Source: Aureimonas sp. AU4
GTDB lineage: Bacteria > Pseudomonadota > Alphaproteobacteria > Rhizobiales > Rhizobiaceae
Assembly (NCBI RefSeq): GCF_001463765.1
Contig: NZ_BBWK01000041.1
Span: 1 to 64,000, forward strand
Reading direction: 5' to 3'
Length of the DNA stretch: 64,000 bases
Positions 16,911-57,112 of the stretch are shown here, one piece after another. The notes under the pieces are model-generated. The model was not told the DNA's origin. It searched no databases and worked only from the letters and a program-made list of their open reading frames with translations. Every line of letters starts with the position of its first letter. The first letter of the stretch is position 1. The position numbers and the translations under genes were made by a program.

Positions 16911-17179
16911 GGAACGGCGCTCCTCGTGTCGTACAGGGCACCAAGGCGTGGCACGGTTCGCCGGTTCCCGCCCCCGGCCACCCGCTTGATGCCGGGGCGG
17001 CGATCGGCTAGAGCCCACGCAGCATCCAGAGTCGGGCCGACGCCCGACGCCAACCTGCCCGTCCGGGCAAGGTGGCGTCCCGAAAGGGAGATGTGGCCGA
17101 CCCGGCAACCAAGCGGACCCGCCACCTCGCCCTATCGGAAAAAGCGTTCGCTCGGCCTCCTTCCGACCGGAGCCGACGC

Positions 17180-17488
17180 ATGATCGCCGTTTTGCCGCCC
17201 CCTCCCGCCTCGCTTCTGGTTCGTCCCGGCGACCGCGCGATGCGCATGGGATGGGTGGGCGAGGCGTCCGGCCGGCCGCCACGCGATCGCGGCGAGGTCT
17301 GGATCGTCTGCCACGCGGCCGGCAACGGCGAGCGCTGGACGCATCTCTACCGGATCGATCCGCGCGATCCGCGCACCGTGTACCTGGAGCGCGCGGCGCC
17401 GGGCGAGAGCGTCGCCGCGCTCCGGCGCTGGGCGCTCCGCCACCTCGGCTTGGCACAAGGAGCGGGTCTGGTTCCGCTCGCGGCCTGA
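17180..17488 (+). CDS. Hypothetical protein, 102 residues
   Basis: Not recognised. The protein has an N-terminal strand (MIAVLPPPPASLLVRPGDRA), a central GRPPRDRGEVWIVCHAAGNGERWTHLYRIDP and a C-terminal helix (VAALRRWALRHLGLAQG). No signal peptide or membrane segment. The ATG at 17180 is preceded by a weak purine stretch; the frame stays open upstream to 17072, so the start is uncertain. It is convergent with the emrB-like gene, leaving seven bases between stops. Confidence 0.55.
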   Translation: MIAVLPPPPASLLVRPGDRAMRMGWVGEASGRPPRDRGEVWIVCHAAGNGERWTHLYRIDPRDPRTVYLERAAPGESVAALRRWALRHLGLAQGAGLVPLAA

Positions 17489-17495
17489 CCGGAGG

Positions 17496-19100
17496 TCAGT
17501 GGGCGCCCGCCGGCGCCCCGCCGCCCGTCTTCACCTTGCGCAGGATCAGCGCCAGCGGCACCGCCGAGAGCGAGATCAGCATCAGGACGTGGAAGACGTC
17601 GATATAGGCGAGATAGCCGACCTGCTTCTGCAGGGTCTGGCCGATCACGGCGATCGCGCCCTGTTCCGCCTGCGCGGCGGACATGCCGCGCGCCTTCAGC
17701 ATGGCGACGGTCGTCTCCAGCGTGTGGTGGTAGGCGGGGCTGGTGGGCGTGATGTGTTCCACCAGCCGGCTCTGGTGGAACTGCTCGCGGAAGGCCAGCG
17801 TGTTCTGCGCGATCGACACGCCGATCGAGCCGCCGACGTTGCGCGCGACGTTGATTAGCGCCGAGGCCTGGTCAGTCTTGTTCTTCGGGATGCCGTCGTA
17901 GGAGGCGGTGGTGATGGGGATGAAGATCAGCGGCAGGCCGAGGCCGACGAAGATGCGCGACCACACGAAGTAGCCGAAGTTGACGTCGGGCGAGAGGCGC
18001 GTGAGGTCCCACATCGCGCCGGCCACGATCGCCGCGCCCAGCGCGATCAGGTATTTCGGCTGCACCACGCTCGTGACGCGCCCGACCACGAACATCATGG
18101 TCATGGTGACGAGGCCGCCCGGCGAGAGCGCGAGGCCCGCCCAGGTCGCGGTGTAGCCGTAGAAGGTCTGCAGGAGTTCGGGCAGGAACTGCGTGGTCGC
18201 GATCAGGATCGCGCCGGTCGCCATCATCACGAGGAAGCAGGAGCCGAACTGCCGGCTCCAGATCATGCGAAGGTCCACCACCGGGTTCTCGTGTTTGAGC
18301 TCCCACGGGATCATGAACAGGAAGGCGAGCAGGCAGACGGTCGCGGACACGATGATGAAGTTGGATCCGAACCAGTCCTCGGTCTGGCCGCGGTCGAGAA
18401 CCAGCTCCAGCGCCCCGAGGAAGGTCGCGACGCTGAGGAAACCCACGAGGTCGAAGCGCACGCCCCGGCGCTTGATCTGCTCGCGCTCGCGCTTCGCCTC
18501 CTCGGACTCCGTGACGAGAAACCAGACCAGCGCGAAGGCGAGCACGCCTACCGGCCCGTTGATCAGGAAGCACCAGTGCCAGGACACATTGTCCGACAGC
18601 CAGCCACCGAGCGTCGGGCCGACGACCGGCGCGACCACCACCGCCACGCCGAACAGCGCGAAGGCCTGGCCGCGCTTCTCGGGCGGAAAGCTGTCGGCGA
18701 GGATCGACTGCGAGATCGGCACCATGCCGCCGCCCGCGAACCCCTGCAGGATGCGGAAGAAGATCAACGACTCGATGTTCCAGGCGAACCCGCACAGGAC
18801 CGACGAGAGCGTGAACAGCGCCAGGCAGGCGAGATAGAAGCGCTTGCGCCCGTAGCGCTTGGCGATGAACGAGGAGGCCGTCAGCGTGATGGCGTTGGAG
18901 ACGAGATAGGTCGTCACCACCCAAGACGCCTCGTCCGAGGAGACGCCGAGGCCGCCCGAGATGTAGCGCAGCGCGACGTTGGCGATCGTGGTGTCGAGCA
19001 CCTCCATGAAGGTCGCGATCGACACCACGATCGCGATCACCCACGGGTTGGACGCGCCCGAGCGCCGGGCCGGGGCGGCCGAGGCGGCCACAGTGGACAT
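17496..19100 (-). CDS. emrB: EmrB/QacA-family (DHA2) multidrug MFS transporter
   Basis: 534 residues with about 14 membrane segments. The first loop has FMEVLDTTIANVALRYI and TTYLVSNAITL, hallmarks of the DHA2 family, and KRYGRKRFYL is the MFS loop 2-3 motif. LQGFAGGGMVPISQSILADSFPPEKRGQAFALFG is motif C/B-like. Drug/proton antiport across the inner membrane, with the EmrA-like adaptor encoded four bases upstream. Hydrophobic compounds or acids are usual substrates. No local regulator gene is visible. Confidence 0.93.
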   Translation of the reverse strand: MSTVAASAAPARRSGASNPWVIAIVVSIATFMEVLDTTIANVALRYISGGLGVSSDEASWVVTTYLVSNAITLTASSFIAKRYGRKRFYLACLALFTLSSVLCGFAWNIESLIFFRILQGFAGGGMVPISQSILADSFPPEKRGQAFALFGVAVVVAPVVGPTLGGWLSDNVSWHWCFLINGPVGVLAFALVWFLVTESEEAKREREQIKRRGVRFDLVGFLSVATFLGALELVLDRGQTEDWFGSNFIIVSATVCLLAFLFMIPWELKHENPVVDLRMIWSRQFGSCFLVMMATGAILIATTQFLPELLQTFYGYTATWAGLALSPGGLVTMTMMFVVGRVTSVVQPKYLIALGAAIVAGAMWDLTRLSPDVNFGYFVWSRIFVGLGLPLIFIPITTASYDGIPKNKTDQASALINVARNVGGSIGVSIAQNTLAFREQFHQSRLVEHITPTSPAYHHTLETTVAMLKARGMSAAQAEQGAIAVIGQTLQKQVGYLAYIDVFHVLMLISLSAVPLALILRKVKTGGGAPAGAH

Positions 19101-21824: not shown

Positions 21825-22017
21825 GAGGCTGTCATGAACCAGGAACAGGGGCTGTATCGGGTCAGCCAGAGATAGCCGCGAGGAGGATCAAGCGGCCCGA
21901 ACCGCCGGGGGGCGTCACCGGGCTGGGCCGTAGCCCCGCTACGACCTGCCCCCGGCTCCTACCCGGCGGATCGGGTCGGACGGTACGATCCCTGTTCCTG
22001 GTTCATAACAACCGCTC
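21825..22017. mobile_element. MITE-like inverted-repeat element, copy 1 (193 bp)
   Basis: The left end begins GAGGCTGTCATGAACCAGG and the right end runs CCCTGTTCCTGGTTCATAAC onward. The two ends are inverted copies (19 of 20 bases over the inner part), and the outermost right bases have drifted. The interior closely matches the second copy at 56845-57112 but lacks a 75-base hairpin-rich block present there. No open reading frame of interest. It lies between cfa and sugE. No target duplication is obvious. Confidence 0.75.
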
Positions 22018-22055
22018 GCCGCCACGCTTCCCCTGCGCCACCCGGTGCGACGACC

Positions 22056-22376
22056 TCAGCCCGGCGAGGCGACCTTCATCAGGACGATGCCCGACAGGAT
22101 CAGCGCGGCGGCGAGGAGCCGCAGCGGATCGGCCGACTCGCCCAGAGCGAGGATTCCGACCGCGAACGCGCCGAGCGCGCCGATGCCGGTCCACACCGCG
22201 TAGGCCGTGCCGAGCGGCAGCGTGCGCATGGCGATCGCGAGGAGCGCGAAGCTGCCGCCCATCAGGACGAAGGTGACGAGGCTCGGCCAAAGCCGCGTGA
22301 AACCGGCGGAGCTCTTCAGCGAGAAGGCCCAGCCGACCTCGAGGAGGCCCGCGACGAGGAGAATGAGCCAGGGCAT
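22056..22376 (-). CDS. sugE: SMR-family guanidinium exporter SugE/Gdx
   Basis: 106 residues with four membrane helices. The first helix [21 protein letters not shown] carries the essential Glu of SMR transporters, and [18 protein letters not shown], with [11 protein letters not shown], is the SugE/Gdx rather than EmrE pattern. Known members exchange guanidinium for protons at the inner membrane. The call is strengthened by a guanidine-II riboswitch in its leader, directly upstream on the same strand. Confidence 0.95.
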
Positions 22377-22414
22377 GGGATGCGTCTTCCGACAGGCCGC
22401 AAGGGAGCGGAGAA

Positions 22415-22463
22415 CCGGGTCGTCCCGGCGGGTTGGCGGAAAAAGGCGCGGGGGTCGTCCCCC
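22415..22463 (-). ncRNA. Guanidine-II (mini-ykkC) riboswitch
   Basis: Read on the minus strand there are two short hairpins with identical tetraloops: GGGGG-ACGA-CCCCC (22463-22450) and CCGGG-ACGA-CCCGG (22428-22415), separated by a 21-base linker. Two stem-loops with ACGR loops are the defining feature of the mini-ykkC/guanidine-II class, which binds guanidinium. They sit 38-87 bases before the ATG of sugE, the usual target gene. A promoter-like pair lies just upstream, so the RNA would start almost at the first hairpin. Confidence 0.9.
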
Positions 22464-22472
22464 ATGGGCCGG

Positions 22473-22500
22473 AAGATGGGACCGCCCGTCCCCGGTTCAA
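22473..22500 (-). promoter_or_regulatory. Putative promoter of the riboswitch-sugE transcript
   Basis: TTGAAC (22500-22495), 16 bases, CATCTT (22478-22473) on the minus strand. A start about seven bases further on would coincide with the beginning of the guanidine-II hairpins. It lies in the 46-base gap behind the upstream nuclease gene. Confidence 0.42.
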
Positions 22501-22509
22501 GCCATGGGT

Positions 22510-23043
22510 TCAGCCGCGCCAGAAGAGGCCCGGCTGCGGGGCGGCGGCGGGGCGCTGCTGCGCCTTCGGCCGCTCGGGCAGCGAGGCGCCGACCGTGTTG
22601 CACCAGTCGCGCCGGCGCCCGCCGTCATAGGCGTCCACCATCCCCTCGCGCAGGAGAACGGCGGCGATGTCGGGCGTGTCCTTGGTGCCGAGGCGCGCCA
22701 GGACGCGGCCGAAATACTTGTCGCCCGAGATCTGCGTGAGGAAGACCGGGCCCGTGCCCACCAGCTGGCGGAAGCGCTCGCGCGCGGCCTCGGCGGACTT
22801 GCGTTCGGAATCGCACTGGGCGCGTAGTTCCGGCGCATCGACGTTGCGCAGGCGCACCGCTACCGACACGCTCTGCATCGGCCAGACGAAGGCCTCGACC
22901 TCCACCGTGTCGCCGTCGCGCACCTTCACCACGCGCGCCTGGACGGGACCCGCGATCTCGCGCGGCGGGTCCTGGTCCTCGGCGGCCCGGGCGGCGGGCA
23001 GGGCAAGGGGAACGAGGGCGAGGGCGAGGAGAAGGCGGCGCAT
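22510..23043 (-). CDS. Secreted thermonuclease (SNase)-like protein
   Basis: 177 residues with an N-terminal signal peptide (MRRLLLALALVPLALPAARA). The SNase fold shows the motifs VRDGDTVEVEAF, VRLRNVDAPEL, then SGDKYFGRVLARL, the segments that carry the Ca and catalytic residues in staphylococcal nuclease. Probably a periplasmic or secreted phosphodiesterase; the physiological role is unclear. It lies just downstream of the DUF1674 gene (21-base gap) and may share its transcript. Confidence 0.87.
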   Translation of the reverse strand: MRRLLLALALVPLALPAARAAEDQDPPREIAGPVQARVVKVRDGDTVEVEAFVWPMQSVSVAVRLRNVDAPELRAQCDSERKSAEAARERFRQLVGTGPVFLTQISGDKYFGRVLARLGTKDTPDIAAVLLREGMVDAYDGGRRRDWCNTVGASLPERPKAQQRPAAAPQPGLFWRG

Positions 23044-56845: not shown

Positions 56846-57112
56846 AGGCTGTTATGAACCGGGAACAGGGGTTGTATCGGGTCAGCCAGGGGATAGCCGC
56901 GAGGAGGATCGAGCGGCCCGGACTGGCGGTCCGGGCCGCTCGGGCCGACAGGGCGGATGCCCTTGGCTCACCCGACCCTTCGGGCCGTCCGCCCCGAACC
57001 GCCGGAGGGCGCCGCCGGGCTGGGCCGTAGCCCCGCTGCGACCTGCCCCCGGCTCCTACCCGGCGGATCGGGTCGGACGGTACAAACCCTGTTCCCGGTT
57101 CATAACAGCCTC
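56845..57112. mobile_element. MITE-like inverted-repeat element, copy 2 (268 bp)
   Basis: Perfect 26-bp terminal inverted repeats (56845-56870 and 57087-57112; left end begins GAGGCTGTTATGAACCGGG). The interior matches copy 1 at 21825-22017, plus a 75-base block that itself contains hairpins (GAGCGGCCCGGAC with its inverse; GGGCGGA with TCCGCCC). At one TIR position this copy has G paired with C where copy 1 has A paired with T. No coding capacity. Confidence 0.82.

Follow-up and report, generated by a model that had tools for sequence, protein, structure and literature searches.

A Guanidine-II riboswitch as a predicted translational switch of gdx in Aureimonas sp. AU4, and a possible CCACGU-loop variant of it in other Alphaproteobacteria

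Is the pair of small hairpins that precedes an exporter gene in Aureimonas sp. AU4 a guanidine riboswitch, and if so, how might it control that gene? The locus lies in a 64-kb stretch of DNA that was analyzed as a whole (the window; features in Table 1). A sequence-only reading had proposed two tandem 5-bp hairpins with ACGA loops and had placed them in the Guanidine-II (mini-ykkC) class; the hairpins were confirmed, and the class assignment is supported. P1 and P2 each have five Watson-Crick pairs with a single G-U pair on the outside, and both loops are closed by G-C (GGG-ACGA-CCC). With a strict definition of the tandem (at least five pairs, GG-ACGR-CC, both strands of the 64 kb), P1/P2 is the only one in the window, and no such tandem was found in 100 simulated order-1 Markov windows. 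The Rfam covariance model RF01068, which that reading had named as the check and which was run with cmscan, matches at 22466-22415 on the minus strand with 39.7 bits against a gathering score of 32 (E 2e-4 for the 64-kb window), which establishes the aptamer match. The linker between P1 and P2 (22448-22430) is 19 nt long and falls inside the range of 7-40 nt given for the class in the available text of PMC7544219.

The whole genome (G000) holds one RF01068 match and no Guanidine-I match, and cmscan with Rfam detected no other guanidine riboswitch family at the P1/P2 site. Guanidine-I, -III, and -IV riboswitches are also guanidine sensors that stand before sugE/gdx genes; their folds differ from that of the window element. 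With the Guanidine-II riboswitches known from E. coli sugE and from Gloeobacter violaceus, in contrast, the element shares the pair of G+C-rich ACGR-loop hairpins, the short linker, and the placement before sugE/gdx, and we see no essential difference from RF01068. It is real and ordinary, a representative of a known class before the gene typical of it. Above the gathering score, Rfam yields only one further match in the window, a SAM-I/IV riboswitch (17017-17122, plus strand, 53.3 bits), which precedes a small ORF (ATG at 17180, 102 aa) that is convergent with an MFS gene (17496-19100); the product of this ORF had no Pfam match at E values up to 1.

Table 1 Features of the gdx leader region in the window.
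Feature	Position	Strand	Basis
-35-like TTGAAC	22495-22500	minus	CTTGA kept 5' of P1 (17 of 21 genus leaders)
-10-like CATCTT, poor match, 16-nt spacer	22473-22478	minus	sequence
UCUUCCG, alternative anti-Shine-Dalgarno if transcripts start upstream	22470-22476	minus	fold of a longer leader; absent in L101
Guanidine-II riboswitch aptamer (RF01068)	22415-22466	minus	cmscan 39.7 bits, model 1-48 of 48
Hairpin P1, UGGGGG-ACGA-CCCCCG, loop ACGA	22449-22464	minus	sequence and Rfam model
Linker stretch UUUUUCCG, candidate anti-Shine-Dalgarno	22437-22444	minus	fold predictions; similar UUUCCG in L101
Hairpin P2, GCCGGG-ACGA-CCCGGU, loop ACGA	22414-22429	minus	sequence and Rfam model
Shine-Dalgarno-like CGGAAGA, 8 nt before ATG	22385-22391	minus	same letters in L101
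gdx/sugE-type SMR exporter gene, 106 aa	22056-22376	minus	PF00893, NCBIfam, PDB comparison

The gene itself (22376-22056) starts 37 nt 3' of P2, and its product had been read as a SugE-type exporter. This holds as well: the protein matches PF00893 with 93.9 bits (cut-off 23.7), and SugE (NF008512) is the top of 21 NCBIfam models with 119.4 bits, although the curated equivalog cut-off of 126 is missed by 6.6 bits. The best solved structure is 6wk5, which we take to be Gdx-Clo, with 97.4 bits versus 47.8 bits for EmrE; by sequence comparison, the protein is nearer to Gdx than to EmrE. Guanidine sensing and export at this locus would follow from membership in these families. Right after gdx lies a repeat with inverted ends (AUGAACCAGGAACAGGG ... 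CCCCUGUUCCUGGUUCAU; 21838-22012), with a second, interrupted copy on the same strand (56858-57107) and partial copies in contigs C15 and C17 and in genome G008. Its fold is far better than those of shuffled sequences (z -4.7), and it had no Rfam match above the cut-off.

The association between hairpins and gene is kept in the genus. A homolog of the exporter is encoded in 20 of 21 genus genomes, including the one studied here, and the 28 matches comprise 21 close gdx copies, again including our own (63-100% identical, L100-L120), and 7 distant SMR paralogs (34-45% identical, L121-L127). At least one ACGR hairpin of at least four pairs precedes every one of the 21 close copies; both hairpins are intact in 17, and one of the pair is weakened or altered in 4 (L107, L108, L110, and L118). 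None of the seven SMR paralogs is preceded by G-ACGR-C hairpins (L123 has a single ACGG loop outside that pattern); the riboswitch-gdx association is thus absent from the paralogs. The 12-nt core of P2 lies at -51 from the start codon in the window and in its nearest relative, L101, whereas it lies at -27 to -37 in most of the genus relatives. At the closer of the two gdx copies of genome G017 (L102), Guanidine-II-type hairpins stand about 90 nt apart, beyond the published range, with a linker that seems able to pair with itself; RF01068 was not reported at this locus. Our literature search returned no title related to Aureimonas and guanidine.

The position of the RNA start bears on how the switch could work. 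The sequence-only reading had also pointed to a promoter-like pair and had placed the start at the first hairpin. The pair exists, and its -35 half is conserved: CTTGA was found in the 55 nt 5' of hairpin 1 in 17 of the 21 genus leaders (L120 is among the four without it); across 2000 mononucleotide shuffles, the count averaged 0.54 and never exceeded 4. The -10 half did not fare as well. It is a poor match, although CATCT can be seen by eye at the corresponding place in several genus leaders, and a strict sigma-70 scan of 22000-22900 gave no site. The -35 motif precedes the P1 core by 39-45 nt in the window and in most of the CTTGA-bearing genus leaders; since this distance is about 40 nt in the window, the start would fall at P1. 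The spacing is 59-67 nt in five leaders (L108, L110, L111, L112, and L116), and the start therefore need not be at P1 across the genus. A start at the first hairpin is plausible from these sequence data, and the CTTGA motif lends the earlier placement moderate support.

We consider it very likely that the Guanidine-II riboswitch acts as a translational ON switch for the guanidinium exporter gene gdx. The transcript would probably start at or just before P1. In the absence of guanidine, the linker stretch UUUUUCCG would pair with the Shine-Dalgarno sequence CGGAAGA, P2 would be largely melted, and gdx would be poorly translated. By analogy with the published family, guanidinium would be the ligand, bound at the kissing loops of P1 and P2; binding would hold both hairpins, stretch the linker, and free the Shine-Dalgarno sequence, so that the pump, presumed to export guanidinium, is turned on. 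A linker anti-Shine-Dalgarno, with hairpins that kiss upon guanidine binding, is indeed what has been proposed for the class in the portions of PMC9094411 and PMC9300104 at hand, and the predicted fold of the window element would fit that proposal.

The competing fold is predicted in the window. The linker stretch is complementary to CGGAA(GA), and the minimum-energy fold of the 122-nt leader keeps P1 intact, dissolves P2, and holds the Shine-Dalgarno sequence by the linker. The predicted probability that the Shine-Dalgarno sequence is unpaired is 0.00 with the real linker and averages 0.53 with shuffled linkers, of which 1 in 60 gave a value as low. In L101, the corresponding figures are 0.04 and 0.35 (2 in 60 as low), with 0.50 in the open state. 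If both hairpins are enforced and the linker is kept open, the value rises to 0.74 in the window; this figure is partly a product of the constraint, since the linker re-pairs unless it is held open. Indeed, the Shine-Dalgarno sequence is still predicted to pair with the linker when P1 and P2 are enforced and the linker is left free, and opening the linker in addition to enforcing both hairpins costs 7.8 kcal/mol over the free ensemble. The force that the P1 and P2 fold alone lacks would be supplied by the published stretching of the linker through guanidine-driven kissing, as described in the accessible sections of PMC5486947, PMC9094411, and PMC9300104. It should be noted that the pairing of CGGAA to 16S is weak (-3.5 kcal/mol), and that the leader as a whole shows no gain in stability over shuffles (z -0.47).

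This arrangement was not supported across the family. Over a panel of 61 leaders, which includes one duplicate locus (L021, from Aureimonas sp. ME7, with a Gdx 76% identical, has the same leader as L115), real linkers were no better than shuffled linkers at masking the Shine-Dalgarno sequence (p 0.32), and the linker anti-Shine-Dalgarno lacks support as a family-wide rule. The enforced open state raised exposure in 37 of the 61 leaders and lowered it in 24 (means from 0.30 to 0.39, p 0.012). Given the null result over the panel, the linker device is particular to the window genome and L101 in these data.

Three other readings of the window element were weighed. According to the first, which we judge improbable, the riboswitch is of the same class, and the main transcripts come from upstream, either by read-through of the nuclease-like gene at 23043-22510 or from an earlier promoter; the segment UCUUCCG (22476-22470) would then mask the Shine-Dalgarno sequence in the presence of both hairpins, and switching would be different or poor. 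The nuclease-like gene does share the strand of gdx, with its end 44 nt 5' of P1, the strict promoter scan is without a site, and in the fold of a 104-nt leader both hairpins are preserved and the upstream segment pairs with the Shine-Dalgarno sequence. However, this segment is missing in L101, the nearest relative, and overlaps the -10-like hexamer, while the -35 motif is kept in 17 of 21 leaders. Control at the level of transcription, with P1 and the U-run that follows it as an intrinsic terminator, is very unlikely: a terminator-like call was made at P1 (UGGGGGACGACCCCCG then CGCCUUUUUC), but one call against 0.5 expected is barely above chance, the U-run is broken in L101 (CGCGCCUUUCC), P1 belongs to the aptamer, and the class is published as translational in the part of PMC12186494 available to us. 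Least credible of all is a decaying or non-responsive relic, or an exporter with another substrate. In its favor, P1 or P2 is weakened in four genus leaders (L107, L108, L110, and L118) and the SugE cut-off is missed narrowly; against it, both loops and stems are intact in the window, where the aptamer exceeds its cut-off by 7.7 bits.

The translational switch before gdx thus remains the preferred reading, and the wider family was followed through RF01068 and through the gdx gene. With strict filters, 18 of 61 relatives gave an RF01068 match, 15 of them above the cut-off; some of the family therefore escapes the curated model. Two or more hairpins were found with a plain rule in 62 of the 108 loci examined. 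Among the leaders missed by RF01068 are those of the genus in which the linker is long or a hairpin is weakened, and those of an alphaproteobacterial form whose first loop is rebuilt. The Gdx leader at L188 (G580) has two hairpins with the loops GCGA and UCUG instead of ACGR, which are either degenerate or another variant.

The first gene 3' of the 19 RF01068 matches reads as Gdx in 11 cases (8 loci also found by the genus homolog search and 3 called by eye), a PACE-family transporter of the chlorhexidine-efflux type in 5 (L005, L008, L011, L015, and L017, each directly after the match), and the urea-amidolyase-associated protein UAAP1 in 2 (L003 and L010); no downstream gene was found for the remaining one (L014). 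The PACE proteins may export guanidine-like compounds. By title, no paper on a link between PACE proteins and this riboswitch was found in our literature search.

The alphaproteobacterial form was found in numerous gdx leaders from Caulobacterales and from some other Alphaproteobacteria. In these leaders, hairpin 1 has the loop CCACGU in place of ACGR (at L020, at L023, and at L027 from Brevundimonas aveniformis, for instance, hairpin 1 is swapped for one with this loop), and hairpin 2 is kept in its canonical form (CCGGG-ACGG-CCCGG), with a conserved AAGUCC on its 5' side. Hairpin 2 is invariant in 37 distinct variant leaders. The variant loci are L020, L023, L027, L069, L128, L129, L134-L161 except L145 and L149, which were chance pattern matches dropped before alignment, 18 of L162-L191, L199, and L200. 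A search for the exact pattern found it in 1 of the 385 genomes sampled from the class; the order of G440 gave 2 out of 36, and that of Brevundimonas aveniformis 35 out of 398 (5 of these 35 matches lie outside the examined loci, and the one in G876 among them looks like chance). gdx lies directly 3' in 32 of the 34 distinct pattern loci examined. Sampling by protein in the latter order, limited to the 30 top-ranking Gdx loci among 120 genomes, gave 18 variant leaders, 10 canonical ones, and 2 that were neither; 16 of the 18 carry the exact pattern, L172 has CCACGA, and L184 has an A-U closing pair.

No Rfam family was detected by cmscan at E values up to 1 in 14 variant loci. From 33 of the variant leaders we built a covariance model. 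Two of the leaders used to build it scored 67.6 and 65.2 bits; canonical leaders reached 31.2 bits at the highest, and the window, where hairpin 2 alone was matched, 11.8 bits. In the 385 class genomes, the model recovered G440 again and added G072 (47.0 bits) and G385 (39.4 bits), both with the match directly before a Gdx-like gene. On a tree of Gdx (148 rows, few columns, and unsettled bootstrap values), the variant (35 rows) needs 7 changes versus 31.9 in shuffles, and at least 3 of the 7 are forced by well-supported branches. As judged from this sequence tree, the variant is clustered yet mixed with canonical leaders.

The evidence for hairpin 1 of the variant is of several kinds. Its stem is paired in 93.2% of the cells in the 37 leaders, and its covariation score was reached by 1 of 500 shuffles. 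Both-sided changes occur at 2 of the 4 pairs, in 3 cells only, and structures slid by one column reach an equal score with far fewer paired cells (61-65% versus 97%); with so few changed cells and with slid structures at an equal score, the covariation is thin. The RNAalifold consensus of the 37 leaders is without hairpin 1, the GCCA of which pairs with UGGC at the start codon, and as a prediction this speaks against the hairpin as drawn. We give this pairing little weight, since UGGC follows from the start codon and a common second codon of Gdx. A possible cross-pairing between hairpins 1 and 2 (GGCC-AC-GUCC with GGAC-GGCC) was set aside, as the hairpin 1 stem shows some covariation and L184 weakens the cross-pairing.

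A third hairpin of at least six pairs, which begins at the end of hairpin 2 and holds the Shine-Dalgarno sequence, can be drawn in 22 of the 37 leaders (mean 4.4 and maximum 11 in shuffles). It shares the last GG of hairpin 2. Its 5' strand comes in 7 versions, and many of the 22 leaders are closely related to one another; at a threshold of at least four pairs, the hairpin is found in 32 of 37, inside the shuffle range (mean 24.3, maximum 34). In L184 and L199, AAGACC accompanies a hairpin 1 that is closed by an A-U pair; a link between the AAGUCC base and this closing pair, seen in two sequences, is only a lead.

Whether the CCACGU leaders are a remodelled Guanidine-II riboswitch is, in our estimate, evenly balanced. 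Loops 1 and 2 would then kiss through CGU and ACG, by three pairs rather than two, which would alter affinity, cooperativity, or the ligand, and the ligand would open the third hairpin. The form may be an undescribed Guanidine-II variant. We found no description of it in the portions of the literature that were searchable, where GGAM-5 (PMC7736828) is known to us by description only, and our search found no paper on Guanidine-II in Caulobacter. In the available description (PMC7736828), GGAM-5 is an unvalidated candidate RNA of Alpha- and Betaproteobacteria that stands most often before sugE and is said to precede varied genes. Compared by that partial description only, the two are possibly related, although GGAM-5 is described before varied genes and the variant nearly always precedes gdx.

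For the window, the analysis gives a probable trigger, guanidine, together with a mode of control, to a gene that annotation would name a multidrug exporter. The main interest lies in the uncatalogued CCACGU variant, which was found by following the gdx family; if real, this form would be a natural experiment on changing the two-loop guanidine pocket.
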